In this document: piece after piece, positions 37,832-59,916 of the stretch | How the letters are laid out: each line of letters opens with the position of its first letter | Numbering within the stretch: the first letter of the stretch is position 1 | Made by a program: the position numbers and the translations under genes | Assembly: GCF_001049755.1 (NCBI RefSeq) | Contig: NZ_CVLB01000001.1 | Location: 186,001 to 250,000 of the forward strand | Length of the DNA: 64,000 bases | From: Brachyspira suanatina | Lineage (GTDB): Bacteria > Spirochaetota > Brachyspiria > Brachyspirales > Brachyspiraceae | Reading direction: 5' to 3' | Notes under the pieces: model-generated | What the model saw: the letters and a program-made list of their open reading frames with translations, nothing else | What the model was told of the DNA's origin: nothing | Databases searched by the model: none

Positions 37832-37853
37832 TTAATTTAAGGAGATAATTAAT

Positions 37854-38243: not shown

Positions 38244-38259
38244 TTAATGGGGGATAATA

Positions 38260-38670
38260 GTGGCTACTCAAAAAGGTAAAAAAACTCTAAAAGATAAAAA
38301 AATTAAAAAAGATAGAAAAGTTGAAGCTTTTGGTATAGTACATATAAAGGCTAGCTTTAATAATACAATAGTTACTATAACTGATAGAAATGGTGACACT
38401 TTATCATGGGCTAGTGCAGGTTTAGATGGAGATTACAAAAGTAGTAAAAAATCTACACCTTTTGCAGCACAAGTTGCTAGTGAAAAAGCATCTAAAAAAG
38501 CTTATGAAATGGGTGTGAGAGAAGTAGAAGTTTACGTTAAAGGTCCTGGAATGGGAAGAGAAAGCTCAATAAGAGCAGTTGAAGCTTCAGGTCTTAAAGT
38601 TAAACTTATTAAGGACGTTACTCCAATGCCTCATAATGGCTGCCGTCCTAGAAAAAGAAGAAGAATATAA
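38260..38670 (+). CDS. rpsK: 30S ribosomal protein S11
   Basis: 136 residues, starting at GTG. It has [50 protein letters not shown] and [13 protein letters not shown]. Confidence 0.96.
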
Positions 38671-38712
38671 TAGTTAATTAAGAATTGTATTGATAATAGG
38701 AGATAAATAATT

Positions 38713-39339
38713 ATGGCAAGATATAGAGATGCTAGTTGCAGATTATGTCGCCGCGAAAAAATGAAACTTATGTTGAAAGGCGATAGATGTCTTACTGCTA
38801 AATGTGCTATAACAAAAAAGAGAGATGTACCTGGTCCTGCTAACCGTAAAATGAAACAGTTATCAGAATATGGTATTCAGATGAGAGAAAAACAGAAAGT
38901 TAAACGTATTTACGGCGTTTTAGAAAAACAATTTAGAAATTATTATCATGAGGCTATTCGTGTAGCTGGTGTATCCGGTGAAAACTTACTTAGATTATTA
39001 GAGCTTCGTTTGGATAATGTTGTTTACAGGCTTGGACTTGCTAAAAGCAGAAATCAAGCTAGACAATTTGTAGCTCATGGTTTTATATCTGTTAATGGTA
39101 AAAGAATGACAATTCCTTCTTATTGTGTTAAAGTAGGTGATAAAGTTTCTTTCACTGAAAGAGGTAACGCAGTAGCTGAAGTAAAAACTATAGTGGAAGG
39201 TTTAAAAAGTGAGTATGTTCCTGCTTGGTTAAGTTTAGATCTTTCTAATAAGACAGGTGAAATCGTAACTTTACCTATAAGAGAGCATATAGAGTATCCT
39301 ATTAATGAACAGCTCATCATTGAGTATTATTCTAAGTAA
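38713..39339 (+). CDS. rpsD: 30S ribosomal protein S4, zinc-type N terminus
   Basis: 208 residues. The N terminus has Cys9, Cys12, Cys26 and Cys31, a zinc-finger arrangement found in one S4 subtype. The S4 RNA-binding domain has LLRLLELRLDNVVYRLGLAKSRNQARQFVAHGFISVNG. It nucleates 30S assembly. Together with the zinc-type S14 and L36, three zinc ribosomal proteins occur in this operon. Confidence 0.96.
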   Translation: MARYRDASCRLCRREKMKLMLKGDRCLTAKCAITKKRDVPGPANRKMKQLSEYGIQMREKQKVKRIYGVLEKQFRNYYHEAIRVAGVSGENLLRLLELRLDNVVYRLGLAKSRNQARQFVAHGFISVNGKRMTIPSYCVKVGDKVSFTERGNAVAEVKTIVEGLKSEYVPAWLSLDLSNKTGEIVTLPIREHIEYPINEQLIIEYYSK

Positions 39340-39369
39340 TGGAACTCTTTTATAAGGGGTATTTTAAGA

Positions 39370-40344
39370 ATGGCATTAAAAGAAATATTAGAATCTATTA
39401 GACATCCTCATAGAGTTACTTTTGAAAAGAAGGATTTAACTCCTACTTATGGTAAATTTATAGCTCAGCCTTTTGAGAGAGGATATGCGGTAACAGTTGG
39501 TAATGCTTTAAGAAGAGTACTATTATCTTCTATACCTGGTTATGCTATCACTACTATAAAAATTGATGGTGTTAGCAATGAATTTGAAAATGTTCCTGGA
39601 ATGAAAGAGGACACAATCGTTATGATTATGCACCTTAAAAATGTAGTAGTTTCTCTTCCTCCTCATATGGATACTAAAACTATTCATATGAAAAAAGAAG
39701 GTCCATGTGTTATCACTGCTGGAGATTTAGTGGCTGATGATACTGAAGCTCAAGTGCATAATCCTGACTATTATATAGCTACAATCGCTGAGGGATATAC
39801 TTTTGAGATGGATATTCAAATTGAAGGCGGATACAGCTATGTACCTGCTGAAATGAATATTGAATTATTAGAAGATATTAATGCTATAGCTATAGATGCT
39901 ATTTATTCTCCTATTGTAAGTGTAAAATATAATGTTGATCCTATCAGAGTGGGTCAGCGTATAGATTATGGTAAACTTACTCTTGAGATAGAAACTAAGG
40001 GTAATATAGCTCCTGATAAGGCTTTATCCCAAGCTGCTAAAATTTTAAGAGATAATTTAAAGCATTTTATGGATCCTGAAGAGGCTAATGGAGATGATGA
40101 AAAAATAGAAGAAACTCCTAAAGATTCTGTGCTTGATTCTCTTAAAGGTAAACATATTGAAGAGGTAGAATTCTCTGTTAGAACTGCTAATTTCTTAATG
40201 GCTTCTGATCTTAAAACTTTAGATAAAGTTGCAGTAAAAACTGATGCTGATTTATTAAGATTAATCGGTGCTAATGAAATGATCATCGAAGAAATTAAGG
40301 AAAAGCTAGCTGAGTATAATGCTCATCTTGGTATGAGAGGATAA
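39370..40344 (+). CDS. rpoA: RNA polymerase alpha subunit
   Basis: 324 residues. The N-terminal domain has YGKFIAQPFERGYAVTVGNALRRVLLSSIPGYA (dimerisation and beta contacts). A short acidic linker (about 235-250) leads to the C-terminal DNA-binding domain with VRTANFLMASDLKTLDKVAVKTDADLLRLIGAN. Confidence 0.97.
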   Translation: MALKEILESIRHPHRVTFEKKDLTPTYGKFIAQPFERGYAVTVGNALRRVLLSSIPGYAITTIKIDGVSNEFENVPGMKEDTIVMIMHLKNVVVSLPPHMDTKTIHMKKEGPCVITAGDLVADDTEAQVHNPDYYIATIAEGYTFEMDIQIEGGYSYVPAEMNIELLEDINAIAIDAIYSPIVSVKYNVDPIRVGQRIDYGKLTLEIETKGNIAPDKALSQAAKILRDNLKHFMDPEEANGDDEKIEETPKDSVLDSLKGKHIEEVEFSVRTANFLMASDLKTLDKVAVKTDADLLRLIGANEMIIEEIKEKLAEYNAHLGMRG

Positions 40345-40385
40345 GAGAATAATATAAAAGTTAATAAACTTTCAAGGATAGTAAA

Positions 40386-40772
40386 ATGAGACATAGAGTT
40401 ACAGTAAAAAAATTTAATAGAACAAGTGCACATAAAAAAGCTATGCTTTCTAATATGCTTACTTCTCTTTTCAAATATGAAAAAATAGAGACTACTAAAG
40501 AAAAAGGTAGAGCTATTAAGCAATTAGCTGATAAAACAATATATAAAGCTAAAGTTGATAATGTTCATAATAGAAGAACTATAGCAAAGTATATTAAAGA
40601 TAAAGATGTACTTGCTAAACTTTTTAAAGATATAGCTCCTAGATATGCTGGTAAAAACGGCGGTTATGTAAGAAAAATTTTATCATACAAGAGATTCGGT
40701 GATGCTGCTGACATGTGTGTTGTTATGCTTTGCGAATCTGACAGCAGTTCTGCTAAAACTGAAAATAAATAA
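40386..40772 (+). CDS. rplQ: 50S ribosomal protein L17
   Basis: 128 residues. MRHRVTVKKFNRTSAHKKAMLSNMLTSLF start and GGYVRKILSYKRFGDAADM. Last gene of the superoperon. Confidence 0.96.
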   Translation: MRHRVTVKKFNRTSAHKKAMLSNMLTSLFKYEKIETTKEKGRAIKQLADKTIYKAKVDNVHNRRTIAKYIKDKDVLAKLFKDIAPRYAGKNGGYVRKILSYKRFGDAADMCVVMLCESDSSSAKTENK

Positions 40773-40839
40773 ATTAAAAATAAATTAAATCAAGTTTATA
40801 AATCTAATATAAGCTAATTAAGATAAATATTATCATGTA

Positions 40840-40863
40840 GTTATAGCGAGTATTCGCTATAAC
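40840..40863 (+). terminator. Hairpin before rho
   Basis: Perfect 9-bp stem GTTATAGCG/CGCTATAAC with a 6-nt loop, followed by a T-rich stretch. It may end ribosomal transcription or attenuate rho. Confidence 0.55.
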
Positions 40864-40896
40864 TTGTTATGATTATTATTTATCGGAGGAATTATT

Positions 40897-42396
40897 ATGC
40901 CTTTTCCAACTAAAAAACGTGTGAAAGTATCTAATGAAAATGAGGAAATTGAAGTATCACCTGCACAGCCAAAAAAAGTTGTTAGAAAAAAGGTTGTAAA
41001 GCAGGTTATTGCAGAAGCTAATGAAGAAAATACAAATAATTCAGAAATTGTACAGGAAAAAGATGAATTTGATAAAGAAATAGAAAATAATGATGAAGTA
41101 AAAGAAATAAAAAGACCTCATGATATACTTTATATTAGTAAATTAAGTGTTTTAACTTTTGAGGAATTATTAGAATTTGCTGAGTCTTATGGTATAAAGA
41201 AAGACACTAGTAATAATATAAGACGTCAGGAACTTATGCATGCTATATTAAAGGCACAGATTGCTCTAGAGGGAAAAATAGTTGCTGAAGGCACTTTAGA
41301 AACTTTACAAGATGGTTTTGGTTTTTTACGTTCTAAAAATAGCAATTATTTGGTTGGACCTGATGATATATATATTTCTCCTGCTCAAATAAGACTTTTT
41401 GGACTGAGAACTGGTGATTTAATTACAGGAGAAGTGAGACCTCCTAAAGATAATGCAGGAGAGAAATTTTTTGCTTTACTTAGAATAGAAACTGTTAATG
41501 GTGAGGAACCTAATAATCTATATAAAAGACCTCATTTTGATAAATTAACTCCTATTTTCCCTAATGAACGTATAGATTTGGAGTTCGCTCCTAATAAAAT
41601 CTCTACTCGTATCATCAATCTTGTTTCACCTATAGGTAAAGGTCAAAGAGGATTAATCGTTGCACCTCCTAAAGCTGGTAAAACTATGATGCTTCAGGAA
41701 ATTGCTAATGCTATATGTAAAAATTATCCTGATATTAAACTTTTCATTCTTCTTATAGATGAACGTCCTGAAGAAGTTACCGATATGAAAAGACAAGTAC
41801 CTGAAGCTGAAGTTATAGCTTCTACTTTTGATGAAACTCCTGATAAACATTGTCAGGTTTCTGAAATGGTATTAGAAAAAGCTAAGAGATTAGTTGAAAA
41901 TAAACATGATGTTGTTATTATATTAGACTCTATTACTAGACTTTCAAGAGCCTACAACTTAGTAGTTCCTGCAAGCGGTAAGGTATTAACAGGCGGTGTT
42001 GATTCCAATGCTTTGCATAAACCAAAAAGATTCTTTGGTGCTGCTCGTAATATAGAAGAGGGTGGATCTCTTACTATTATTGCTTCTGCTTTAGTTGATA
42101 CAGGAAGTAAGATGGATGATTATATTTATGAGGAGTTCAAAGGCACTGGTAATATGGAGCTTCATTTAGATAGAAAACTTGCTAATAGAAGACTTTTCCC
42201 TGCTATTGATATTGATTCTTCTTCTACTAGAAGAGAGGATTTACTTCTTACTGAAGAAGAAAAAAATAAAATGTGGGCATTGAGAAAATATATGCAGTCT
42301 CAAGGTATAGATGAAGATCAATTAATAGAAACTGTTGTTGATAAAATGAATTCTACTAAAGATAATGCAGAATTTTTAAAATTATTAAATTCATAA
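40897..42396 (+). CDS. rho: Transcription termination factor Rho
   Basis: 499 residues, about 80 longer than E. coli Rho. The extra N-terminal segment (1-75) is charged and low complexity. It continues with the Rho_N helical domain, the cold-shock RNA-binding domain ([12 protein letters not shown]), Walker A at [23 protein letters not shown] (Walker B/Q-loop) and [16 protein letters not shown]. It is a hexameric RNA helicase. A GGAGG ribosome site precedes the ATG. Confidence 0.97.
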
Positions 42397-42420
42397 ATTA
42401 TTTTTTAGGATTTTATCAAT

Positions 42421-43002
42421 ATGCCAAAGAACTCTGAAGATGAAGAAAGAAGATTATTTGAATTCTATTTGGAGCATGGATATCTTCCTGATGAGTTTAA
42501 TAATAAAAAAGAAAATATAAAAAAAGAATTTAATAAAGATAAAGTTCATAAAGAAAATAATATTAATAAAGAAATTCAAATTGATTATAAAGAAGAATTA
42601 GCCTACACAAAAGAAGATGAAGAAATGTTTTTAAGTGCAATTGAGAATCTCGATTGCACTAATCATTCTAAAAAATCAATTCATGACAGAAGAGTTAATA
42701 CTAAATTCAAGCCTAATATAAAAAATGCTATTCCAAAAGATAGATTAGATCTGCATGGACTTACAAGTGAAAGAGCTTTAATAGAAATTAAACATTTTAT
42801 TTATGAATGCAAAAAAAATAAAATAAGCCCAATACTAATAATACATGGTAAAGGTTTCGGAAGTGAGAATAGAATACCTGTTTTAAAAAATCTAGTTGAA
42901 TATTATTTAGCTACAGAAGGAAAAAATTATATAAAATTTTCTTCTGATGCTCCTATAAATCTTGGAGGAAGTGGTGCTAAAATAATTTATTTGGATATAT
43001 AA
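42421..43002 (+). CDS. Smr-domain protein
   Basis: 193 residues. The N-terminal half is charged and probably disordered. The C-terminal ~85 residues form an Smr domain: RLDLHGLTSERALIEI (LDxHG), ILIIHGKGFGSE (HGxG) and the late GGSGAKIIYL. Stand-alone Smr proteins nick RNA or DNA; E. coli SmrB rescues stalled ribosomes by cutting mRNA. It lies 24 nt after rho and may be co-transcribed. Confidence 0.85.
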   Translation: MPKNSEDEERRLFEFYLEHGYLPDEFNNKKENIKKEFNKDKVHKENNINKEIQIDYKEELAYTKEDEEMFLSAIENLDCTNHSKKSIHDRRVNTKFKPNIKNAIPKDRLDLHGLTSERALIEIKHFIYECKKNKISPILIIHGKGFGSENRIPVLKNLVEYYLATEGKNYIKFSSDAPINLGGSGAKIIYLDI

Positions 43003-46679: not shown

Positions 46680-46889
46680 GCATAAAAATAAGTTTAAAAT
46701 CTTAATGGATATAGTTTTATGTATTTAAAATAAAAAATGATTCTAAATTATAAGAATACCTTATAAAAGATCATTTTAATGTACTTTTAATCTAGCTTTC
46801 CTATATCACAATAAAAAATCTTTTCATTACTACTGGCTATAAAAATATTATAACTTTAGTTATAATATTTTTGTCATTTATATCTTTAT

Positions 46890-47466
46890 CTCTCAATTTT
46901 TCAGTATAAAAGTATTTAATATCGTTCATATTTTCGTATATTTTTCATACAATAGTCTTTTATATTCATTATCATTTATTAAATCATTTTTATTTATATC
47001 AAATAATTCTATAAAAGATTTAATATATTATATTGAATCTTTTTATTCCGTACTTTTGTATTATTTAGTAGCAAGTGAATCAGCTTATTTTTATCTAAAA
47101 CAGGATATGAACCTAGACTTTCTTATGAATTTTAATTTATAAAACATTTTATTATGCTTCCTAACATGTGTTAATTCATGTTCAATTGCAAATGGAAAAC
47201 ATTTCTGATCTTCAAATGTATCGTATACAAATATTGTTTTATAATATAATAAATCTGTTCCGCATACAGGCATGGATCTAAAAATACATGGTATAAATTA
47301 TTTAGTTCCATATCAATTTTTGATGAAAAATAATTTGATGGATTAGAAGCATCTTTAAAAGTAGCTTTTATTATATTGTCTTTTGTTTATTCTTTATTAG
47401 AAGTTATTAAATCATTTTGAGATAATAAATTTTTTATTTTTCTATTTCTAAATCTAAATAATTCAT
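46890..47466 (-). pseudogene. Remnant of a zinc metallopeptidase gene
   Basis: Fragments in several reverse frames look coding but are broken by stops and shifts. The longest, 47273-47091, contains FAIEHELTHVRKHN, an HExxH zinc site followed by a charged stretch as in M56/M48-type peptidases. Upstream fragments include NPSNYFSSKIDMELNNLY; a downstream one includes NDLINDNEYKRLLYEKY. At least two stops and two frameshifts separate them. It opens the decayed border of the accessory island. Confidence 0.5.
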
Positions 47467-47673
47467 TTTTATATTTTTTTATTAATTAATATTTACTCTT
47501 ATTATATTTTATCAAAATTTATATATGTTTAGTAAATAAATATAAATCTAATCCTATTTATACATAGTATTATAAAATTCAACATTAACTATATGGGTAA
47601 CATCAATACTTTATTTTAAATAAAATATAATCTCGTTTTCCTACATTACCAATAAAAAAATCTCGCCAAAATG

Positions 47674-47710
47674 TGCTGACAACTAAAGTTATCAGCACCT
47701 CAATTTTTTA
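47674..47710 (+). terminator. Hairpin with T-tract (terminator or small RNA end)
   Basis: GTGCTGACAAC pairs with GTTATCAGCAC (one mismatch in 11) over a 4-nt loop, followed by CTCAATTTTTT. It occurs once; it is not a CRISPR array. Confidence 0.5.
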
Positions 47711-47910
47711 TAGTAGAATTGCACATACTGAGTAGGGTATCGAGAAAGCTTTTTTAAGACTTTATAAACTCTTCACATTAATATGTATTTTACATCTTAA
47801 TGTCAAAGAACTTGTTCTCAGTATAATACATTTTTTTGTTTTGCAAATTATATTGTATGTTTATATTAAATAAAAATTCTTCTAAAATTGTATATTTATA
47901 ATGTATATTA

Positions 47911-47938
47911 TTGATTTTATAATTTTTATTTATATACT
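47911..47938 (+). promoter_or_regulatory. Promoter of the dual-HEPN gene
   Basis: TTGATT, 16 nt, TATACT, about 32 nt before the ATG at 47970. Confidence 0.45.
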
Positions 47939-47969
47939 AAAATTATTATATGTAAATTGTGGAGATAAT

Positions 47970-50801
47970 ATGTCAGTTCATAAAATTCCATATATTAAAG
48001 ATATTTATTATTTTATAAGAGATGGTAAAAGTAGTTATAAAGTAAAAAATTATTAACTATACTAACAACATTTATATATAGAAAATAGTGCATTTAATAA
48101 AGATTCTAATAATGAAAAAAAGTTGGAAGAAAAAATTAGTAAGTCAATATATAGAACACAATTTGAAACTGTATTTAAATTAAAATATTCAAAATTGGAA
48201 TGTGCAAGATTAAAATGTGCTAAATTAAATTCCAAAGATTGCTAGTATGTGATAAAAGAGAAAAAGATAAAGAAGATAAAAAAAGATAATTTTTATAGAG
48301 AGGATAAAGAGAATTTACAAAAAGTTATAGATACTTCATATCAACAAGCTATTTGTTTTATTATGGATTTTAGAAATATTCTTATACATAAAAATGTAAG
48401 AAATGATCACTTTGATCATTGTCAATTTAAAGAATTTAATGGAGAATTGTTTAATTTCCTTAAATTATGTTTGGATAATGAAATAAATTTAAATGCTCGA
48501 TATATAGAAAAGATTAAAAATGAGAATCCAGAACTATCTTTACAAAAATATAAAGACAAAGATTTATATATAAAAGAAGCATTAAATGTAGACTTTTCTG
48601 AAATGGAAACTTCATTCAAAAATGTGCCTTTTGTATATGCTTTAATGATTATCTCCATGTTTACAGAAAAAAAGAATATCAAAGAAATATTGGATTTAAT
48701 AAAATTGAGAGCTTATATTAAGGAATTGATTTTATCCTTTTCATTAAGAGTAGGATATAAAACTCTTGTACCGAGCGTAGAATTTGATGATGATAAACTT
48801 TATTTAAATCAAATAAAATTAAAAGAGAAATTTAATAGTGAAGTATTCAATGAATTTGGAAGAATAAAGAAAACTATAAAAGATTTTGCAGATGAATCTA
48901 ATACCGACAATAAAACTAATGATTTGGAAGATATTATAAGAAATGATAAAGCAAATAAATTGATAGAAATAAAAAAAGATAAAATAGATAAAAATGAAAA
49001 GATCAATGAAAAAATAAAAGAAAAGGAAAAAATAGAAAATTCTAAAGAAGAAATAGAAAGATCTTTAATCAATGTATTTAGAAATGAAGATATATTTATG
49101 AAAGAGGCTTTAAATTTTACTACTGAATATGGTAAATTAGGAAATTTAAAAAGCTCTTTTTTTGAAGATACTTGGTCTATAGTTGGAAATGCTGCTATAT
49201 GGGCAGTACCTATCTATAAAATAGTTTATAATGATATTGAGAAGAAAAATATAGATATGATAAAATACAGTATTAATAAATATAATCTTACAGCTTTACT
49301 TACATATATAATGATCTCTGATGATGTAATATTTTATAATTTACAGCAGACAGCATCATTTTCTTATATAAAAAAAGAATGTAAAAATGATAATAAAAAA
49401 TACAAAGTAATATTATTAGAATATATTTTAAAGGAAAAAGTAAGTAAATATAGTGTATATCAAAAAACTAAATTTTGTGTAAGAGTTATAAGAAGGAAAA
49501 TAGTTAAAAATCAGCATATACATCAAAGAGACAGCATTGTTTTTCATGAAAAGTTAATGATGATTATATCAAAACTCTATAAGGTTAATAATAATATTTC
49601 TTATGGGGCAATTAAAAAAGTGTTTGATTTTGTTCATATAAATATTCCTAAACATATGGAAGATATATTAAAAATAAAAACTCTTGATGGTATTACAGAT
49701 GAGCGCATAAAACTTACTGTGAAATTTGCAGAGAATAAGAAAAATATAGAAAAGAAGCCTAAAGATGAAACTAATGTTTTATATAAAAGTTGGAGTAAAT
49801 ATGCTTTTTCTCCTAATTATTCTATGAACAAAGATAAAAATGACTATTATAAAGACACAGATGATAGAATTTATAAGGCTTTGAGATGGGATAATATAAA
49901 AGAAAATTTGTTTTCAAAAGAATTTGATGATTATAAAACTGGAAAATATGATTTATTATCTATATTATTAAAATATTTCAAAACTAAAAATTATACTATC
50001 CCTGTAATTGTTAGTTTTTATGAGGAATATAAATATAAAAATAAAATAAAAAAATTTAGAGATAATGAAATAAGAAATATATTCTCTCAGGAGATGGTTC
50101 TTGCATTAATTTCTCAGAAATATTCTAATTTGATTGTACATAAAAATAAAAAACTAGGAAAAAATGTACCTATTATTTTTCAGTATAATAAAAATGGTAA
50201 AGGTATTTTTGATTTAGTTTGTATATTAAAAACACATATTAGAATTAATATTAGAGATTACTATAAAAAAGATGTTAGAAATGCATTGGAATGGCTTCTT
50301 GATCCGCAAATAATAAATAAATCATCAATGAAAAAAGAGGATTTGTATCTTTCCATATCTAATTCTATAGAGGCATTTAATATTATAGTTCAAGATAATG
50401 TTTTGAAAAAATTTATTAATCCTACAATTAGTGAATTAAAAGAAGGAGAAGAATTAGATAGAGTAAAAGTTAAAGAGTTGGTTTGTATATTGATGTGGGC
50501 TGCTAAAGAGTTTTTATATTTTGTATGTGCTATATGGTTGCATTTAATTTATAAATGTCATAAAGCCGATGGGATTAAATATATAATAACAAAAAATGGA
50601 TATGTAGAGTTCGAAGATTTAGTCGATTTTAATAATAATAAAATGACTCCAAATATAGGAGAACTATAAAAGATGTCAGGAATATGATTTATCATATGAG
50701 AGAAAGACTATGCGTATAAAACTGCAATTGATTATAAGAGAAATGTATTGAAAGTTTTAGGACTAAAAGATATTTATAAATCTTATAATGATATAAGTTA
50801 A
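47970..50801 (+). pseudogene. Interrupted dual-HEPN (Cas13-like) gene, full ancestral extent
   Basis: The ancestral reading frame seems to run 944 codons from the ATG at 47970 (GGAGA upstream) to the TAA at 50799-50801, next to the ribosome site of the following gene. The same frame (frame 0) is used at both ends. It is broken by TAA at 48054, TAA at 48063 and TAG at 48243. Near 50640-50669 it shifts to another frame, which reads IKDVRNMIYHMRE. It then returns to frame 0 and reads KDYAYKTAIDYKRNVLKVLG to the final stop. Thus a second RNxxxH HEPN motif sits at about residues 903-908, and the first, RNILIH, at 135-140. This spacing matches Cas13b-like effectors. Confidence 0.6.
48249..50669 (+). 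CDS. Long open part of the Cas13-like HEPN protein (806 codons)
   Basis: Open from a GTG at 48249, without a ribosome site, to TAA at 50667. R42-N-I-L-I-H47 (RNILIH) is a full HEPN RNase motif in a helical context. Residues 131-151 (ALMIISMFTEKKNIKEILDLI) recall the SLFLEKKEI..FL segment after HEPN1 in Cas13b. IRNIFSQEMVLALISQK (about 608-624) recalls the IRxxKxQDxxLxxMA segment before HEPN2. A Lys/Glu-rich coiled coil lies at ~215-275. RNALEW at 677 lacks the His. These are remembered family patterns, not alignments. Other HEPN RNase families, such as Abi-type, are alternatives. Confidence 0.45.
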   Translation: MIKEKKIKKIKKDNFYREDKENLQKVIDTSYQQAICFIMDFRNILIHKNVRNDHFDHCQFKEFNGELFNFLKLCLDNEINLNARYIEKIKNENPELSLQKYKDKDLYIKEALNVDFSEMETSFKNVPFVYALMIISMFTEKKNIKEILDLIKLRAYIKELILSFSLRVGYKTLVPSVEFDDDKLYLNQIKLKEKFNSEVFNEFGRIKKTIKDFADESNTDNKTNDLEDIIRNDKANKLIEIKKDKIDKNEKINEKIKEKEKIENSKEEIERSLINVFRNEDIFMKEALNFTTEYGKLGNLKSSFFEDTWSIVGNAAIWAVPIYKIVYNDIEKKNIDMIKYSINKYNLTALLTYIMISDDVIFYNLQQTASFSYIKKECKNDNKKYKVILLEYILKEKVSKYSVYQKTKFCVRVIRRKIVKNQHIHQRDSIVFHEKLMMIISKLYKVNNNISYGAIKKVFDFVHINIPKHMEDILKIKTLDGITDERIKLTVKFAENKKNIEKKPKDETNVLYKSWSKYAFSPNYSMNKDKNDYYKDTDDRIYKALRWDNIKENLFSKEFDDYKTGKYDLLSILLKYFKTKNYTIPVIVSFYEEYKYKNKIKKFRDNEIRNIFSQEMVLALISQKYSNLIVHKNKKLGKNVPIIFQYNKNGKGIFDLVCILKTHIRINIRDYYKKDVRNALEWLLDPQIINKSSMKKEDLYLSISNSIEAFNIIVQDNVLKKFINPTISELKEGEELDRVKVKELVCILMWAAKEFLYFVCAIWLHLIYKCHKADGIKYIITKNGYVEFEDLVDFNNNKMTPNIGEL

Positions 50802-50811
50802 AGGAGTAATA

Positions 50812-53457
50812 ATGCTAAAGAATAATACAAATATCATAACTTTTAAAGATGTTTTTAATGGATTAGGTAATAATTATAAAGAAAACTTAATTGAATTAAT
50901 TAATAGTATCAATAATGATTATATAAAAAGTAAAATTTCTATCAAAGAAGAAAAGGAAGAAAATATTTTTAACTATAATATAGCTAATCTTAATAATAAT
51001 GAGATTACTTATATAAAAAATTATATAAATCTATGTTTAAATAATTGTAATGATATAAAAGATGCATCTTTTGTGAGGCAGTATATAGATAAAGTTTTTA
51101 AATTTAAGATAAAAAATAATAATGAAGATTTTCCATTTTTATATTTGCTTTTATTGTTGAAATTATATTCTGATGATTATAAAAGTTTATATATATTTAT
51201 GAACAATATTGGGATATATTATGATATTATCAAATTGATATTTTTTGATATAGAAGTATATGATATTTATATAGATGAAAGTGGTAATATAGATTATGAT
51301 AAGGAAGAAAAAAAACTTTTTGTTGTAGGAGGGTATTATACTAAAAATATTAGATATGATGATTGGGAAAAGGAAACTAAAGCAGAATTAAAAAGACTTT
51401 CAGAAAAATATTCAATTGATGATAATATTATATATCATAGAACAAAAATAGAAGATTTTAATGTTAGAAAATCAATAACAAAAGAAATTTTTAATTTTAT
51501 AAAAGAAAATAAAGGAAAATTTGTATGTATATATGAAAATAAGCCAAATGGTATTGAGTTTACAAAGCAGTATTATTTAGATTTAGTTTCAAAATTAATA
51601 GTTAATACATTAAAGAAAATTTTATCAGATGAAGAGCTAGATTTTGATTCTAAGAAAATACTTCTCATTATACATATTGCTAAGAGAGGAGATAAAGATA
51701 ACAATGCTTTAGACATATATAATTTTGGAGGTGTTAAGAAGTTTTTGAATTATATTGTTGATAATAAAATAGAGATTGATAAAATAGTTGAAGAATGGGA
51801 ATCTCATAATGAAGAATACTTTCAAGAAGTTACTAATGTACCTAAATCCGATATAAAATCAAAAGTTTATGAAAGTATAGAAGAATGGAAAATAAAATAT
51901 TCAGTTACAGATAAAAATATAAATTATGAATTATCCAATCCTTCTGATGCACTAAAAGACAGCACATTAGTTTTTGCTGATTATTTTTGCAATACTTTTT
52001 ATAACCGCAGCGGTTCAGATTCTAAAGAAATATTTAAAGATTTTGATATATATTTGCAAATTAAGTATAGTTTTTTAGATAAAGATACTATTGATTTTTA
52101 TTTTTATAAATATGACTATTATACAATATTAAACAGATATATTTTTTATAAGAAGTTAATAAATCAAGAAAATATAACTAAAAGGACAAAAGATTTTGCT
52201 GAAAATGGCAGTAAAGAAATATTGCAGTTTTTTAAGAAAGATAATTTAAAGAGAAGAGTAAATTATTTAGTTCATGCTGTAAAAAGTATATTAGATAATT
52301 TAGAAATAGAGTCTAATAATGAGTTTAAATATGATAATATATTGGGAAGCTGTGATATATTAATAGATTTGCTCGAAAAAATAAAACAAGATAATTCAAA
52401 TGATTTTGTATTAAGAAAAATTTATTCTATGATATTTATGATTAATACTGCTAAACTTTCTGTTTATAATCATAGTGATAATACAGAAAAATCTTTGGAA
52501 ATGGTTAAAACAAATATAGATTATATAAATAATATAGATAATGATAATTTCTTTTTTAGAGAAAAGATACTTTTTGATAATATCAGTACAGTCGCTCAAT
52601 GGGATTTTTATGAATGTGATTATATTATAAAATATATAAAAAAAGTTTTGGAAGACATTAAGTGTTATGAAAAATTATATATAGATGATATAGCAAGATT
52701 ATACGGTACGCTTGGACAGACATATATTATTCATTATTATGTTACAGAAAATACTAAAGATTTAGATAAAGCTAAAGAGTGTTTTTTTGAATCTAAAAAG
52801 TTATTTAAAGATGATAAAGGAAATACAAGCAGAACATATAGTAATTTAATGCTTTATGCTATAACATCAGGTATGGAAGATGAATTTTTAGATTATCTTT
52901 ATAAATATATTACAGAAAAAGAAGAAAGTTTTGATAATATTGATTTGTTAATTGAAAAATTAGTTTCTTATATAGATAATAATAATCAGCCTGATAAAAG
53001 CGATAAATATTTAATAATAAGGCTATTAAGATATTGCAAAAATTTTGATACAGAATATAGTAAAAAAATAGCTAATATACTTATAGAAAAAAGCAGTAAT
53101 TTCTATGATGATAAAAAAAGAAAAGAATCTTCAGAGGATGTTGATATAGAAAAAGATTATTGTTTTGTTTACTATAAAATAAAGAAAGAAAAAATTTCTT
53201 TGTCAAATAGTTATATATTTGTAGAAAATTTACAAGGATATTTCCAGTATATGAGAAAATTATCTTTATATTTAACAGAGATTTTAACAGGAGATGAAAG
53301 CTATTTTGATAAAGCTGTAGATATATTAGAAGAAATGGTTAATATGCAAGATACTAATTATAAAAAAGCATTTGGAAAGTTTTTTGAAGAAAGTGCTAAA
53401 CCTAATTTAGATAAATATAAATGGGCTTATAATTTAAGTAAAAAATTATATATGTGA
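50812..53457 (+). CDS. DUF3800 (RNase H-like) protein with helical repeat C terminus
   Basis: 881 residues, AAAGGAG before the ATG and only 10 nt after the ancestral stop of the HEPN gene. Residues ~150-410 match DUF3800: IYIDESGNIDYD with Asp155/Glu156, FVVGGYYT, and the late LVFADYF with Asp390 that completes an RNase H-fold acidic site. The N-terminal 150 and C-terminal ~440 residues are helical; the latter has TPR-like pairs. DUF3800 proteins occur in mobile and defence loci with no defined activity. No signal peptide or membrane segment. Confidence 0.75.
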   Translation: MLKNNTNIITFKDVFNGLGNNYKENLIELINSINNDYIKSKISIKEEKEENIFNYNIANLNNNEITYIKNYINLCLNNCNDIKDASFVRQYIDKVFKFKIKNNNEDFPFLYLLLLLKLYSDDYKSLYIFMNNIGIYYDIIKLIFFDIEVYDIYIDESGNIDYDKEEKKLFVVGGYYTKNIRYDDWEKETKAELKRLSEKYSIDDNIIYHRTKIEDFNVRKSITKEIFNFIKENKGKFVCIYENKPNGIEFTKQYYLDLVSKLIVNTLKKILSDEELDFDSKKILLIIHIAKRGDKDNNALDIYNFGGVKKFLNYIVDNKIEIDKIVEEWESHNEEYFQEVTNVPKSDIKSKVYESIEEWKIKYSVTDKNINYELSNPSDALKDSTLVFADYFCNTFYNRSGSDSKEIFKDFDIYLQIKYSFLDKDTIDFYFYKYDYYTILNRYIFYKKLINQENITKRTKDFAENGSKEILQFFKKDNLKRRVNYLVHAVKSILDNLEIESNNEFKYDNILGSCDILIDLLEKIKQDNSNDFVLRKIYSMIFMINTAKLSVYNHSDNTEKSLEMVKTNIDYINNIDNDNFFFREKILFDNISTVAQWDFYECDYIIKYIKKVLEDIKCYEKLYIDDIARLYGTLGQTYIIHYYVTENTKDLDKAKECFFESKKLFKDDKGNTSRTYSNLMLYAITSGMEDEFLDYLYKYITEKEESFDNIDLLIEKLVSYIDNNNQPDKSDKYLIIRLLRYCKNFDTEYSKKIANILIEKSSNFYDDKKRKESSEDVDIEKDYCFVYYKIKKEKISLSNSYIFVENLQGYFQYMRKLSLYLTEILTGDESYFDKAVDILEEMVNMQDTNYKKAFGKFFEESAKPNLDKYKWAYNLSKKLYM

Positions 53458-53520
53458 TATTTTTTATAGAAAATAATTTGACTTATTAAAAAAACTTTAT
53501 ATAATAGAGATATATCATTT

Positions 53521-53541
53521 CTCTGGTATTTAGTCCCAGAG
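53521..53541 (+). terminator. Terminator after the DUF3800 gene
   Basis: CTCTGG/CCAGAG stem with a 9-nt loop, followed by TTTATTTATTATTTTTTT. Confidence 0.7.
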
Positions 53542-53852
53542 TTTATTTATTATTTTTTTGACTTTGTTTTTAGGCTTTTTGCTTATAAACAGTATTTTGG
53601 AATTAAATGTAATTATATTTAATTCTGTTTATTTTTTAATTTTTATATAAAAGTAATAATTTAAACTTTAATGGGCTAAGTATATCTAGTAAAAAATTAT
53701 TTATTACAGTTTTAACTCCATTAAAATTTGTTATTATTGCTTAGCTATAATTATGCATTTAATATATAGTATATTTTTTACATTATAAGTATTATTTTTT
53801 TATTAAAGTTAATTTTTTTATAGTTTTTTTTAATAATTTATAAATATTATAC

Positions 53853-53880
53853 TTGATATATTTTGTGAATATGCTATTAT
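53853..53880 (+). promoter_or_regulatory. Promoter of the small-peptide/helicase unit
   Basis: TTGATA, 16 nt, TATTAT. It is the first promoter-like site after the terminator. Confidence 0.4.
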
Positions 53881-54050
53881 TAGTTCATAAAATAAAAATA
53901 TTTAGCTACTGCTAAAGTTTGAAAATATCATTTTTTTATGAATTTGTTTCTTCTATTAATTAGGTAGAAACGGTATTTGTGATTAGGTAATTTCTTAATT
54001 ACAGTTTGATTGTTTACTGATATTTTTAATTAAACTTAAAGGAGCTAAAT

Positions 54051-54269
54051 ATGTCTATTAACTTTTTTTCTAATAAAAGTAATCTCAATACTACTTATTA
54101 TATAGTGAGTAGTCTATTAATTTGTAACAACACTATTGGTCCTATATTAAAAATAAATAAAAATGTAGAAAAATCTTTTTCAAAGAAGAAATCCATAGAA
54201 AAAAACAAATTTTTCATACTATCAAAAAATCATAACATCAAATTTATGGATAAAGTATTTCTAATATAG
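54051..54269 (+). CDS. Small basic protein of unknown function
   Basis: 72 residues with a strong AAAGGAG ribosome site 7 nt before the ATG. A short hydrophobic stretch (YYIVSSLLIC, residues 16-25) is followed by a Lys/Asn-rich half (KKKSIEKNK). No family recognised. Because of the good ribosome site and the structured leader I consider it probably translated; it could also be a leader peptide. Confidence 0.4.
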   Translation: MSINFFSNKSNLNTTYYIVSSLLICNNTIGPILKINKNVEKSFSKKKSIEKNKFFILSKNHNIKFMDKVFLI

Positions 54270-54481
54270 TGCATCATTTTTTTAAAGTTTTAAATGTTTG
54301 TGTATTTTAATTAATTTATTAATTTATGCATACATTAAGGTGTTTTCATAAAAGGAGTTTGTTAGGTATAAAAAATTATTATTAGTGTCATTTTTAGTAT
54401 AGCTAAATTTGTTATTACCTATTTTATAAAGAAAAATAGATAATAAGTTTACAAGCAATGCTCGCATATTTTTATTAGTAA

Positions 54482-54497
54482 TTTATGCCGGCATAAA
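54482..54497. promoter_or_regulatory. 16-bp perfect palindrome, possible operator
   Basis: TTTATGCCGGCATAAA is its own reverse complement, 24 nt before the ATG at 54522. It is GC-rich in the centre, against a very AT-rich background. Confidence 0.4.
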
Positions 54498-54521
54498 GAA
54501 ATCTATAAAAGGAGAGCAGCT

Positions 54522-54611
54522 ATGAGTAATCCTGTATTAATAGTAAAATTAATTAAAATGGCAGTGGAAGTATTAGAAGAATATTTACTCGGTAAAGATG
54601 GAAATAAGTAA
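54522..54611 (+). CDS. 29-residue amphipathic peptide
   Basis: MSNPVLIVKLIKMAVEVLEE begins a 29-residue peptide ending GKDGNK. AAAGGAG precedes the ATG at good spacing. The first ~24 residues form an amphipathic or hydrophobic helix. No cleavable signal. Similar in size to type I toxins and phenol-soluble-modulin-like peptides, without detectable identity. Confidence 0.45.
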   Translation: MSNPVLIVKLIKMAVEVLEEYLLGKDGNK

Positions 54612-54628
54612 ATTAAGGAGGTCTTATA

Positions 54629-54721
54629 ATGTTTCTAAAAAATATCATATTAGGTTTAGTCCCTGTTGTATTAAGTATTATAGCAGAGGAAGTATTAAAA
54701 ACAGTTATTAAAAGATCCTAA
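54629..54721 (+). CDS. 30-residue hydrophobic peptide
   Basis: MFLKNIILGLVPVVLSIIAE starts a 30-residue peptide ending KRS. A near-perfect TTAAGGAGGT ribosome site lies 6 nt before the ATG. A ~20-residue hydrophobic helix is flanked by Lys residues. It lies 17 nt after the 29-residue gene, so the two may act as a pair. Confidence 0.45.
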   Translation: MFLKNIILGLVPVVLSIIAEEVLKTVIKRS

Positions 54722-54815
54722 GTTTGTAAGCGTGCCTGCATATCTTTTTAAGGTCTGCGCATATTAAGGAAGAAAATGATTATTAATTTATTATTTTTTA
54801 GGAGTTTAATTTAAT

Positions 54816-56795
54816 ATGATTGATAAAATAAATTATAACAAAACAAATTTAAAAAATATAAGTAGTAAAAATATGGATTATATTGGAAATGATGAATTTA
54901 TATCAGAGTTAAATTTGAATAAATACAAAAGTGCTTCAGATGAAAAAATAGACATTAATAATCAATATTCAAATTCTATTTCAAATGCAAATAGTAAGAA
55001 ATATAGTATGAAGCGTGAAGTATTAGATAACAGAATTGATAATTATGATGATGAAATAAATAATACTATTACTAGAAAAGATGGAGGGCTAAAGGAAACA
55101 AGCGTATTGAATGAACAGGGTAATGTTTCCGAAACCCATCATAAAGAAACATTCAATATAGATTCAGCAGCTCAGGGAAGAGAAAATAAAACTCATGCTG
55201 AAAAAACAAAATATGGAGATCCAACTACTGATATAAGGGTTACAGATGGGGATAATACAAAAGATTATCAATTAAAATATGAAAAAGATCCTAAGTCAAA
55301 TGTAGACTCTCTTTCAAATCCTAAATATTCAGGTGGCGATAAAGTTGCACCTTCAGATCAGGTTGATGATATAAAAAGAATAGCATCAAATAAAACTAAT
55401 ACAGAAAATAAAGACTATGCACATACTAGTGAAAATACATACGATAGAATTTCAAGTGAAGACGGTAAAGTTAATAGTGATCCATTGACAAGAGATGAAG
55501 CTATTGAATTAACAGAAAAAGCAAGAAAAGGAGAGAAAATAGAATATAAATATGCTGATGAAAAAAGAAATATACAATTTCGTAATCAATTACTAAAATC
55601 AACGTTATTAGGAGGAGCTTTCGCGGCAGGCGGTGCTTTATTTGGTGAAATAATGAAGTTGATTGACAATGGAGGTAATTTAACAGAAGATGAGTTTATA
55701 CAAGGATTTTTTAATGTTGTTAGTGCTGGTGTAGATGGAGCTTCTAAAAGTGCACTTGCTGTTAGTCTTCACTATTTAGGAAAAAATATAGGTTCTTCTA
55801 TACTTTCAAATCCTTATGTAGGAGGAGGAATTGCAGTTGTTACTATAGATACATTAAAGAGCCTTTATAAATTTGCTATAGGTCAAATTAATGATATAGA
55901 ACTTATTGGAGATGTATCAAAAAATATAATTCAAACTACAACAACTTCTGTAGGAGCTTTTGCAGGTTCCACTTTAGCTTCTTCAATTTCATCATTAGTA
56001 ATTTCTAATATGACTATGAGTGCGGCCGCTGCAGCAACATTTAGTACTATAGCAACAGTTGTAGGTTCTGTTCTTGGAGGTTTGGCTTTTGGTTTGACAA
56101 CTGCCTATCTTATAGATTTAGATTCCAAAGCAGGCATTGAAATAGCAAAAAGAGATATAGAAGAAGCATACGAAGAATTTAAGAAAGATAAAAATTTATA
56201 CCAATTAGTTGATAAAATAGGAACACAAAAAGATTGGGAATTCAGTATTAAAAGTTTGATTCTATTTGGAGGTACATTTGCTCAGATAAGTGAATGCTGT
56301 ACTAGGAGTCAGGGACTTAAAAATATATCATCTCATTTAGATAAACAGTACAGTTATATAGATGAGGCAGAGAGAAGGGCTATAAATAATATAAAAGAAA
56401 AAGCAGCTATTATTGAAGATGATATGAAGCAGAAATTTTATGCTAATGTAAAGCATATGTTTCAAAATGATGTTGTTGAACTTCATAATGACTTAATGAA
56501 TTTTTTAAATGCAAAAAGAAATATATTGGCTTTAAATGAGAAGAAATATATTAATGAACTCAAATGTATAGATGAAGATAATGCAGCTTTACAGGAAAGA
56601 GCTTACAGAGATGAGCTATTTTATGATGAAGTTAATAATTTGATAGAGATGATAGAAAAATCTGATATTGAAGTTAAAGAAAATATTATAGGGGTATTGG
56701 CATATATAGCTTCAGAAAAATTTTCTGAGAATTTGAATTCTGATATAAGAGATTTTTATGAACTATTAATTGAAGATAATATAATAAATATTTGA
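54816..56795 (+). CDS. Membrane protein with nuclease-like N-terminal motif
   Basis: 659 residues. Residues 1-90 are Asn/Lys-rich. A conserved-looking block follows: HHKETFN (108-114), THAEK (126-130), TDIRV (138-142) and YQLKY (151-155), where D139...Q152-x-K154 resembles the PD-(D/E)xK site. SNPKYSGG...APSDQ comes next. Residues ~258-433 are Gly/Ala/Ser-rich hydrophobic helices (LLGGAFAAGGALFG, VGSVLGGLAFG), probably membrane-inserted. The C-terminal 220 residues are helical with charged coiled coil. It leads a four-gene operon ending in a helicase. No signal peptide. Confidence 0.55.
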   Translation: MIDKINYNKTNLKNISSKNMDYIGNDEFISELNLNKYKSASDEKIDINNQYSNSISNANSKKYSMKREVLDNRIDNYDDEINNTITRKDGGLKETSVLNEQGNVSETHHKETFNIDSAAQGRENKTHAEKTKYGDPTTDIRVTDGDNTKDYQLKYEKDPKSNVDSLSNPKYSGGDKVAPSDQVDDIKRIASNKTNTENKDYAHTSENTYDRISSEDGKVNSDPLTRDEAIELTEKARKGEKIEYKYADEKRNIQFRNQLLKSTLLGGAFAAGGALFGEIMKLIDNGGNLTEDEFIQGFFNVVSAGVDGASKSALAVSLHYLGKNIGSSILSNPYVGGGIAVVTIDTLKSLYKFAIGQINDIELIGDVSKNIIQTTTTSVGAFAGSTLASSISSLVISNMTMSAAAAATFSTIATVVGSVLGGLAFGLTTAYLIDLDSKAGIEIAKRDIEEAYEEFKKDKNLYQLVDKIGTQKDWEFSIKSLILFGGTFAQISECCTRSQGLKNISSHLDKQYSYIDEAERRAINNIKEKAAIIEDDMKQKFYANVKHMFQNDVVELHNDLMNFLNAKRNILALNEKKYINELKCIDEDNAALQERAYRDELFYDEVNNLIEMIEKSDIEVKENIIGVLAYIASEKFSENLNSDIRDFYELLIEDNIINI

Positions 56796-56830
56796 TTTAT
56801 ATATTTTATAAAAATAAATAGGAGTTAAAT

Positions 56831-57952
56831 ATGATTATAGATTTTTTATTAAATATAATGTGTAAGAAAAAATTAGAAAAACAAAGAGAAAAACTCAAAT
56901 TAAAAATAGCTGATCTTGAGAATTATAGGGATAGAGCTATACAAAGAGTTAATGAAGTTAAAGAGTATTATAATCAAAGATTGAATGATGTATTTGAGCA
57001 TTTGTCAAAGTTAGAAATTAATATCAAAAATAATTTTTATAAGATTGTGCATGATGAACTAATTGAAGTTTCTAATATAGTAAAACAGTCTTATGAAATA
57101 GTATTTCATATGATTGATTTAGATTGGCAGATAAAAATTTTAACATCAAGAAAGAATAATAAGAAAACAGAAATCACTATTCGTAAAAGAAGTAAAGATG
57201 AAGCTGTTAAAATTTTAAAAATATTATTTTCTTCTTACAAAAAAGATGCAAGGCTAAAATGGTTTAATGAAGTTAATGATAATAATATAAAATGCATAGA
57301 AGAATTAAATAAATTAAAAACAGAGGACAATAGTGAAGATATAAATATACTTATAGATCTATGTGAAAGAGATTTGATAAACCGCGATCATATAGTAACA
57401 ATAAAAAAATATATAAATACTGAGGATAAAATATTAAATATGCTTTTAAAAGATGTGGATTCTCTTAATGAGCAAATAAAAAATATAAAAAATAAAGCCA
57501 TTGATTGTTATATGAGATACAGAGAATTACAAAATCAATATTATGATTTATATAATAGACAAATTGATGATAATAAAATACTTCCTGGTTATCAAGCATT
57601 AATTCAACAAAAGGATCAATTAAAAATTATAAAAGGGAATTCGTATAAGAAAGCAGATGATTTCAGCAAGGATTTAAAAAATAGATGCATCAATAGAGAG
57701 AAGATAGTAAATTATGAGGATCTTAAATATGAGGAGAAAAAATTATGGGATAATTATAAAGACTATAAAGTATTATTTAAAGACTCTAATGATAATGTTA
57801 ATTATTACTATGAAACAATAAAATTTCTTATAGAAGAGCGAAAGAAAAGCATTAAGGAGCTTTATACAAAATCTATAATTACACTTAAGCAGGTTAATGA
57901 AATGGGTATAACTTATTATAAAAATAATAATTCTGATATAAAGGAGAATTAA
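56831..57952 (+). CDS. Coiled-coil protein
   Basis: 373 residues, almost wholly helical. Lys/Glu-rich heptads run at ~12-70 and ~205-245, with a Tyr-rich segment (YRELQNQYYDLYNRQ) near 230. The N-terminal MIIDFLLNIM is hydrophobic and may attach to the membrane or to the neighbouring membrane protein. No known domain. AGGAG precedes it, 36 nt after the membrane-protein gene and 3 nt before the next. Confidence 0.6.
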   Translation: MIIDFLLNIMCKKKLEKQREKLKLKIADLENYRDRAIQRVNEVKEYYNQRLNDVFEHLSKLEINIKNNFYKIVHDELIEVSNIVKQSYEIVFHMIDLDWQIKILTSRKNNKKTEITIRKRSKDEAVKILKILFSSYKKDARLKWFNEVNDNNIKCIEELNKLKTEDNSEDINILIDLCERDLINRDHIVTIKKYINTEDKILNMLLKDVDSLNEQIKNIKNKAIDCYMRYRELQNQYYDLYNRQIDDNKILPGYQALIQQKDQLKIIKGNSYKKADDFSKDLKNRCINREKIVNYEDLKYEEKKLWDNYKDYKVLFKDSNDNVNYYYETIKFLIEERKKSIKELYTKSIITLKQVNEMGITYYKNNNSDIKEN

Positions 57953-57955
57953 TAT

Positions 57956-58333
57956 ATGATGTATAAAATTAAAGTAAAAAGTAAATATTTAACAGGAATA
58001 AATAAAATGATAATTTGGGTTTTGAACAATGATTATCATAGACCTAAGGATATATTTAATATATTAAAAATATTTTACAGTAATACTTTAAAAATATATA
58101 TACAGAATATGCTTGAGTTAAATTTATTATGCATAAAAAAAGTTAATGGTATAGGAGGCATATATGTAAATAAGAATTTTGATGGGGAGTATTTTTATTT
58201 AAATATTGAAGATGATAGTATAAATTTGAATAGTTTGGACAAAAAAGAAAAATGCAAAATAATAAAAAATAATTTGATTAATAAAAGTACTATAAAGGCA
58301 TTAAGCTTAAAAAATATATCAGTTTGTTATTAA
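57956..58333 (+). CDS. Small winged-helix-like protein
   Basis: 125 residues (an adjacent ATG at 57959 is equally good). Residues ~12-65 (INKMIIWVLNN, RPKDIFNILKIF, LKIYIQNMLELNLLCIKKV) look like a winged helix-turn-helix with a recognition helix and wing, then a beta-rich and helical tail. It might regulate the operon or act as an adaptor for the helicase. The assignment is from pattern only. Its stop overlaps the helicase ribosome site. Confidence 0.5.
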   Translation: MMYKIKVKSKYLTGINKMIIWVLNNDYHRPKDIFNILKIFYSNTLKIYIQNMLELNLLCIKKVNGIGGIYVNKNFDGEYFYLNIEDDSINLNSLDKKEKCKIIKNNLINKSTIKALSLKNISVCY

Positions 58334-58344
58334 AGGAGATTATT

Positions 58345-59862
58345 ATGACATTTTTAGAATATTTATCAGCTTGGAAAAATTATTTGAATGTATTATCTGA
58401 TACTATGATAGATGATAAATTACGTATAAAATATTTAAGGCAGATAGAATATATAAAAAAAATAGAGTATGGAATTTTTATGGATGCAAAACTCTTTCAA
58501 ACTTTGAAAAGAACTTATGATAACAATATTGTATCTGAATCAAAAAAGGAAAATAATATTCATATTGATCCAATACAAGATATATATAAAAAAGGAAGTG
58601 GTGTATTTAATATTATAGAGAAAGCAATAAACAGCAAGAAATTATTTTGTTTAATGGGTCCTCCTGGTACAGGAAAAACTACAGCAATTGCTGAGATAAT
58701 ATTACAAACTATGAAAATGAATAGTAAATCTAAAATAGCTATATGCTCTGAAACACATATTGCAGTTGATAATGCTATAGAAAAATTGATATATGAATGC
58801 TGTAAAAGAAAATTGAATTATTCTATTATGAGATATGAAGAGTTTAAAGATAAGAGTGATAATTTGGCATATAATGTTTGCTATAATAATTATATAGATC
58901 ATTGGAAAAAATATGTAGCTTCTAGTTATGATAAAAAGTTTTGTGAGAATTTATTTTTTGAGTTTGAAAGAAATATAGGAAATAAAAAGAGAAATCATAA
59001 GTATATTTGTGATAATGTAAGTATATTAGGTATTACATGCAATCAAATTGGAAGATTTAAAATAGAAGAAACTGATGAGGCTTATGATTTAGTTATTATT
59101 GATGAAGTATCTAAAAATACTTTACCTGAAATTTTAATGCCTGCTTCTTTTGCTAAAAAGGTAATATTAGTTGGGGATCCTAATCAACTTCCTCCTGTAT
59201 TTTGCCGTAATGAAATAGAAACTATGAATGAAATAGATATTAATTTGCAAGAAACATTAATAGAAAATTCTTTAGTTGATAGATTATTTAAGAATTCTGA
59301 TAGAGATACAATGTTCGGTATGCTGGATACTCAATATAGAATGGAAGCAAAGATAGGTGATATTGTAAGCAGATTTTTTTATAATGGAGAATTAAAAAAT
59401 GCTACAGCATATTGTGATGATGAAAGTATATATTGGATAGATTATCATACAAATGAAAAATTTCCTAATAATTATAGAGGGGAATTATATAATCCTATAG
59501 AAATAGATTTAATAAATAATAGTATTGAAAACTTAAATACTAATGCAAATACATCTATAGCAATAATAACACCATATAAGAAACAAAAGTATGAAATTAG
59601 AAAAAAAATAAAAAATAATGAAAATCTGAAGCATTTAAATATAAAAATAGATACAATAGATGCTTTTCAGGGTAAAGAAGCTGATATAGTTTATTTTAGC
59701 GTTGTTAGAAATACAGGTTCTGCAAAATTCTTTTCTAATATAAAAAGACTTAATGTAGCAATATCAAGAGCAAAAAACAGATTGTATATGGTTGGTATGT
59801 CTAAGTATTGTAATAAGGTAGATATATTGAAAAATATTTATTCATTCTCAAAAGTGTGTTAA
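58345..59862 (+). CDS. SF1 helicase of Upf1/DNA2 type
   Basis: 505 residues from the ATG at 58345, which has AAAGGAG before it; a frame from 58324 overlaps the previous gene. Motif I GPPGTGKTT, Ia CSETHIAVDNA, II VIIDEVS (DEVS in place of DEAS), III GDPNQLPP, IV DTQYRM, V DAFQGKEADIV and VI NVAISRAKNRLY are all present. It is a compact helicase without fused nuclease or zinc domains; the N-terminal ~100 residues are helical. Upf1-like helicases unwind RNA or DNA 5' to 3'. It closes the operon. Confidence 0.85.
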   Translation: MTFLEYLSAWKNYLNVLSDTMIDDKLRIKYLRQIEYIKKIEYGIFMDAKLFQTLKRTYDNNIVSESKKENNIHIDPIQDIYKKGSGVFNIIEKAINSKKLFCLMGPPGTGKTTAIAEIILQTMKMNSKSKIAICSETHIAVDNAIEKLIYECCKRKLNYSIMRYEEFKDKSDNLAYNVCYNNYIDHWKKYVASSYDKKFCENLFFEFERNIGNKKRNHKYICDNVSILGITCNQIGRFKIEETDEAYDLVIIDEVSKNTLPEILMPASFAKKVILVGDPNQLPPVFCRNEIETMNEIDINLQETLIENSLVDRLFKNSDRDTMFGMLDTQYRMEAKIGDIVSRFFYNGELKNATAYCDDESIYWIDYHTNEKFPNNYRGELYNPIEIDLINNSIENLNTNANTSIAIITPYKKQKYEIRKKIKNNENLKHLNIKIDTIDAFQGKEADIVYFSVVRNTGSAKFFSNIKRLNVAISRAKNRLYMVGMSKYCNKVDILKNIYSFSKVC

Positions 59863-59871
59863 TATAGATCA

Positions 59872-59916
59872 TATAGTCAATCTAACTATTTATTTTTGAT
59901 AATTAGATTGACTATA
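59872..59916. terminator. Long stem-loop between converging genes
   Basis: TATAGTCAATCTAA pairs perfectly with TTAGATTGACTATA (14 bp, 17-nt loop). It separates the helicase operon from the alcohol dehydrogenase gene and probably terminates in both directions, although T-tracts are weak. Confidence 0.6.

Follow-up and report, generated by a model that had tools for sequence, protein, structure and literature searches.

A conserved four-gene unit pairing a PD-(D/E)XK nuclease-fold protein with a UPF1-like helicase as a candidate mobile defence system of bacteria

The window analysed here comprises 64,000 nt of Brachyspira suanatina DNA (contig NZ_CVLB01000001.1, positions 186,001 to 250,000), and coordinates are counted from its first letter unless another locus is named. 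At 54816-59862 it carries four same-strand genes, A, B, C and D, which form one operon with an AGGAG-type ribosome site ahead of each gene and intergenic gaps of 35 (A/B), 3 (B/C) and 11 nt (C/D); an initial annotation of the sequence had given the last two gaps as we find them and the first as 36. The C/D gap is counted from the ATG at 58345, to which we moved the start of D from TTG 58324 in the open reading frame listing because the starts of homologues and an AAGGAG site favour it. Table 1 collects the features of the locus.

Table 1. Features of the four-gene unit and its surroundings in the window.
Feature	Position	Strand	Size or basis
Accessory block, 13.2 kb, absent from the empty site of related Brachyspira	46691..59913	.	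locus comparison
DNA block with ~83% identical counterparts preceding the unit in L023, L024, L026	53458..54184	+	sequence comparison
Micro-ORF alpha, 29 aa, strong ribosome site; Brachyspira only	54522..54611	+	homologue comparison
Micro-ORF beta, 30 aa, hydrophobic/amphipathic, strong ribosome site; conserved upstream of A in Brachyspira	54629..54721	+	
Gene A: nuclease + Gly-zipper-like region + helical tail	54816..56795	+	659 aa
A residues 68-255: predicted PD-(D/E)XK nuclease domain, E106-D139-Q152xK154	55017..55580	+	AF2, fold matches, residue invariance
A residues 260-450: Gly/Ala/Ser-rich, GxxxG runs, possible membrane-inserting segment	55593..56165	+	composition; AF2 confidence low
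Gene B: probable coiled-coil protein, short hydrophobic/basic N-terminus	56831..57952	+	373 aa
Gene C: winged-helix protein	57956..58333	+	125 aa; AF2 + structural matches
Gene D: UPF1-like SF1 helicase, start ATG	58345..59862	+	505 aa

The AF2 model of A is confident only over the nuclease domain (pLDDT mostly 82-95), where it places in order a helix (97-119, with E106), three strands (126-130; 140-144, with D139; 147-153, with Q152-x-K154) and a further helix. This is the alpha-beta-beta-beta-alpha core of the PD-(D/E)XK superfamily, in which acidic residues are combined with an (E/Q)xK motif on the third strand. The initial annotation had recognized a D...QxK nuclease-like motif and suggested modelling residues 95-190; the model supplies the fold, and our alignment extends the motif to G102, E106, D139, Q152 and K154, identical in 25 of 25 full-length homologues. 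Foldseek alone found nothing significant for A. In the VIA structural comparison, the matches spanning the nuclease part were PD-(D/E)XK nucleases, each with a modest score (Z below 8): PaqCI 7.2, SPARDA 5.4, Hjc 5.3, Can2 4.7, HindIII 4.5 and EndoMS 4.5. Because fold, motif and invariance agree where each score alone is modest, we assign to A, on its modelled structure, a genuine PD-(D/E)XK nuclease domain, which would be expected to cleave nucleic acid.

Variants of A occur elsewhere. Stand-alone degenerate copies of its N-terminal nuclease region lie directly upstream of A in three loci (L023 6362-6928, L024 10550-11029, L025 421-1227); their catalytic residues are partly lost, and they might be inhibitors, regulators or products of decay. 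At L081 5985-10465, the gene immediately after an A-like 552-aa gene encodes 941 aa with a Walker A motif (AAA+-type by eye), which looks like a second partner arrangement for the family, without the helicase.

Beyond the nuclease domain, the Gly-rich region contains 36% G/A/S, and its zipper-like character is retained in all A homologues examined. The initial annotation had called it a Gly-rich membrane region; the composition holds, whereas the membrane part is less certain, given a single marginal 19-residue hydrophobic peak (KD 1.62 at 407-425) and low AF2 confidence, so that insertion is only possible. Helical-bundle VIA matches to residues 425-550 were set aside as generic. One way to read this architecture, close to what the initial annotation suggested, is as abortive infection, with a helicase complex that senses infection and a Gly-zipper region that forms pores, the nuclease-fold domain only binding nucleic acid. 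The retention of the region would fit such a role, as would the view of Bell et al. (2024, PMC11090510) that a relative of A is bacteriocin-like and its nuclease fold inactive, but an active-site E, D, Q and K without exception among the homologues is not expected of an inactive domain, E, D and QxK are present in a Klebsiella relative too, and the hydrophobicity is marginal. We consider this reading unlikely and, in view of the invariant catalytic residues, take the nuclease to be a likelier effector than the membrane part.

Gene B encodes a long, charged, helical-looking protein whose short hydrophobic/basic N-terminus recurs in most homologues. The coiled coil proposed for it in the initial annotation is compatible with this and probable, as a prediction from sequence. 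C was modelled as a winged helix with high confidence (mean pLDDT 92.9), and structural matches to ArsR/MarR-type winged helices (Z up to 10.3) agree with the earlier assignment. The SF1 Upf1-type helicase call for D likewise stands: D has AAA_12 (5e-41) and AAA_11 (2e-31) domains with SF1 motifs I, II, III, V and VI intact, and its nearest solved relatives are UPF1/NAM7 and SMUBP-2. These relatives, together with the occurrence of the A family in CoCoNuT operons, raise the possibility of an RNA-directed system, in which D would act on RNA or stalled ribosomes, as proposed for the CoCoNuT protein CnuH, and A would cleave RNA or both nucleic acids. That is rather unlikely in our estimation, since the fold matches of A are mainly DNA enzymes and D is without the long N-terminal part of the CoCoNuT helicase in locus L082.

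We found the unit well beyond Brachyspira. Searches with tblastn detected A in Streptococcus, Polaromonas and Acinetobacter plasmids, and a few genes further downstream these loci encode a helicase belonging to the same subfamily. Because the A alignment was too divergent for a genome scan, we chose as locus finder a degenerate pattern for the D motif S-E-T-H-[IV]-A-V-[DN]-N, present in all ten unit loci then known, which yielded 28 stretches from 84,980 species genomes and 2 from viral contigs; an A-based scan of viral contigs gave no match. In profile searches of the source genomes, 24 of the 27 records matched D at 1e-40 and 22 matched A; two stretches with no D match (L034, L042) were dropped. 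Gene calling gave A, two genes and then D in almost every locus, the exceptions being contig edges (L072 is cut by a contig end), split annotations and visibly decayed copies (L079 and L080 look decayed). The A-B-C-D order is intact in about 30 loci from at least five phyla: Brachyspira, beta-, gamma- and alpha-Proteobacteria, Bacillota, Bacteroidota and an oligoflexian, plus three plasmids and a viral contig. Hosts include Pseudomonas, Achromobacter, Rahnella, Pseudogulbenkiania, Asaia, Bowmanella, Methylobacter, Lachnospiraceae, Flavonifractor, Acetivibrio and Roseivirga; among E. coli genomes there was no near match to the Rahnella unit.

The trees of A, B and D also agree, their distances correlating at pairwise r of 0.93-0.97; for C against the other three the correlation is 0.69-0.76 (Mantel p 5e-4 in both cases). 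By profile comparison, A and D are homologous across all groups, and C proteins are weakly linked between groups. B is homologous among Brachyspira, Proteobacteria and the oligoflexian/Bacteroidota pair (1e-5 for Brachyspira against proteobacterial B), with no homology detectable by profile between these and the longer Bacillota B, which is equivalent by position only. The four-gene set is conserved across phyla far beyond chance. The initial annotation had held that the genes act together, had suggested searching genomes for conserved four-gene loci and had named variable D139, Q152 and K154 positions and varying neighbours as grounds for rejecting the idea; the shared order, the congruent A, B and D trees and the invariant motif all bear it out.

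In Brachyspira, the unit lies in the accessory block, which is flanked by two conserved genes, one of 154 aa and one for an alcohol dehydrogenase. These two genes are directly adjacent in five related genomes (L084, L086-L089), and a sixth locus (L085) bears a deletion scar in which pieces of the upstream block and the final ~124 nt of D survive. Locus L026 has the unit at the same site, without the Cas13-like and 881-aa genes that precede it in the window. The unit diverges far more quickly than the genes around it: between the window and L026, identity is 43% for A, 34% for B, 42% for C and 69% for D, compared with 94% for the dehydrogenase. UPF1-like helicases and PD-(D/E)XK nucleases also serve in repair, and an ordinary chromosomal repair or RNA-processing operon is therefore conceivable. 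The distribution is patchy, however, with A matched in 9 of about 26 Brachyspira genomes, the empty site and scar, and few species in the database scan, and we regard such a housekeeping role as highly improbable.

Other occupants of the block and of the site in related genomes are informative. In the window, the Cas13-like gene (47970-50795; PADLOC Cas13gr13, 1.5e-143) has in-frame stops near both ends; its homologue in L024 encodes 1004 aa with two RxxxxH (HEPN) motifs. The 881-aa gene (50812-53457) pairs with the Cas13-like gene in L023 and L024; by eye it has a DUF3800-like 'YIDESGN' stretch, for which Pfam gave no match. A 72-aa ORF in the upstream DNA block (54051-54269) has homologues in L023, L024 and L026. 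No CRISPR array was found within the window. At this chromosomal site, locus L083 (5939-12457) carries genes of the Csm6-like CARF-HEPN type together with a short CRISPR array of ~37-nt repeats, and in L021 a 71%-identical unit lies beside a CRISPR array. The L021 array (2892-4123; repeat GTTTTTAAACTCATTCCCCGTAAGGGGACGAAAAC) is located between the unit and the dehydrogenase gene and continues into variant repeats joined to other repeated sequence. The unit is accordingly accessory, mobile and found at a site common to other defence genes, which suggests an immunity-gene hotspot whose occupancy, as context, fits the behaviour of defence genes. The defence role proposed in the initial annotation gains a fitting context from the empty site, the scar and the Csm6, CRISPR and Cas13-like occupants; the role itself we infer. 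Elsewhere in the window, a same-strand cluster at 36127-43002 (GC ~33%) is possibly a VSH-1-type gene transfer agent; many of its genes have 95-100% identical counterparts in certain other Brachyspira species.

The two micro-ORFs, both amphipathic and overlooked in the initial annotation, are situated downstream of the conserved DNA block and ahead of A. In seven further Brachyspira loci the unit is preceded by homologues of alpha, of beta or of both, with up to four tandem copies of beta in L021; none was seen outside Brachyspira within 1.1 kb of A. Since the pair also precedes the Csm6 genes in L083, we treat it as a hotspot feature or shared small-peptide module and not as a core part of the unit. 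A resemblance of beta, by eye, to Fst-type toxins was discarded, Pfam giving no match.

Outside Brachyspira, the Acinetobacter copy sits among restriction genes and Menshen-like genes and the Polaromonas copy has a Lamassu-like gene nearby; when 20 flanking genes were tested individually, most matched no PADLOC family. Some copies have integrase or recombinase neighbours or occupy plasmids and a viral contig. Such neighbours and the plasmid-borne copies could also indicate that the unit serves a mobile element, through stabilization, transfer or competition between elements, and not host immunity. We think this very unlikely, as the Brachyspira copies share a chromosomal site with Csm6, CRISPR and Cas13-like genes and no transfer genes were linked to the unit in the loci read.

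Taken together, we consider the unit to be probably a horizontally mobile four-gene system that defends against phages or other invading nucleic acid. This reading draws on the shared gene order, the congruent trees, the invariant active site with its nuclease fold, the accessory insertion with empty site and scar, the fast divergence relative to the flanks, the hotspot, the plasmid, viral-contig and integrase settings, the Acinetobacter restriction genes and the relatives of A in CoCoNuT III-A operons (PMC11090510). In such a system, D and the winged-helix protein C would engage foreign nucleic acid, and coiled-coil B, through its short N-terminus, would hold the parts together, probably at the membrane. 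The resulting D-C-B complex could deliver substrate to A or switch it on, the PD-(D/E)XK domain would then cut the nucleic acid, and the Gly-zipper-like region may place A at or in the membrane. Counting against this explanation are the predominance of flanking genes elsewhere that match no PADLOC family, the weakly hydrophobic and poorly modelled membrane region, the Bacillota B that is not detectably homologous and the nuclease-fold Z scores below 8.

The initial annotation did not recognize the combination as a named defence system, and our searches agree: none of the models in PADLOC 2023, Pfam, NCBIfam or PHROGs identifies A, B or C, PDB sequence searches assigned these three to no family either, and D has generic helicase-domain matches. 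Weak matches to DUF697, FabI and apolipoprotein were judged chance and rejected as identities. Within the libraries and papers that our searches covered, the four-gene form is undescribed, and only the CoCoNuT papers proved relevant. The helicase domain of D matches the PADLOC model of MkoA from Mokosh (7.5e-96), but only over positions 622-1085 of a 1112-position profile, and A, B and C match no PADLOC model; with no full-length MkoA/MkoC match, we rejected a Mokosh identity. SNIPE (PMC13190303) could work alike, as a membrane-bound nuclease that cuts incoming phage DNA, but it is defined by DUF4041, and Pfam found neither DUF4041 nor GIY-YIG in A-D, which combine PD-(D/E)XK, helicase, winged helix and coiled coil.

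CoCoNuT offers the closest comparison. Its type II and III operons join the UPF1-like SF1 helicase CnuH to a winged-helix element, coiled coils and a nuclease, and this helicase, winged-helix and nuclease coupling recurs as CnuH/CnuE (Bell et al. 2024, PMC11090510); by analogy, the unit may couple its parts in a similar manner. It is nevertheless not a CoCoNuT, because it has no McrB/McrC homologue (searches of A-D and the two upstream genes gave no such domain, and the gene downstream runs convergently) and D, at 505 aa, falls short of half the length of the 1144-aa helicase of L082. Only the helicase core of D aligns with that protein, and D has no counterpart of the N-terminal OB/SPB/RTL domains of the long CnuH of types II and III-A. 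The unit's winged helix is a separate small upstream gene with no profile match to the CnuE of L082, and its nuclease is the Gly-zipper protein A. For extended type III-A operons, Bell et al. (2024, Fig. 7, PMC11090510) describe a glycine-zipper protein that is bacteriocin-like and whose PD-(D/E)XK fold they regard as inactivated, and in L082, where the order (VWA, A-like, AAA+, CARF, PP2C, kinase, helicase, DUF2357) is that of CoCoNuT III-A, this protein (19584-21155) is homologous to A (4e-18 over residues 69-372) with the same nuclease-then-Gly-rich layout, a kinship that the initial annotation had not noticed. It differs in its neighbours, a VWA gene on one side and a CDC48-like AAA+ gene on the other, and in being described as inactive (PMC11090510), whereas the active site of the unit is invariant; as it keeps the GFxAE, SVDVV and YQAK elements, the 'inactivated' label may merit a second look. 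The broader picture, which we find evenly balanced, is of an undescribed, pan-bacterial form of immunity built on a membrane-located nuclease of the PD-(D/E)XK type; a UPF1-like helicase, together with a winged-helix and a coiled-coil adaptor, would load or switch this nuclease, whose family is reused in CoCoNuT operons with AAA+ ATPases. The unit adds a conserved candidate immune system with three gene families (A, B and C) that no searched library names, its invariant active site (E106/D139/K154) makes helicase-coupled, possibly membrane-located nuclease cleavage directly testable as a defence strategy, and it connects a compact UPF1-like helicase core with a nuclease family that has until now been mentioned solely as an inactive CoCoNuT add-on.
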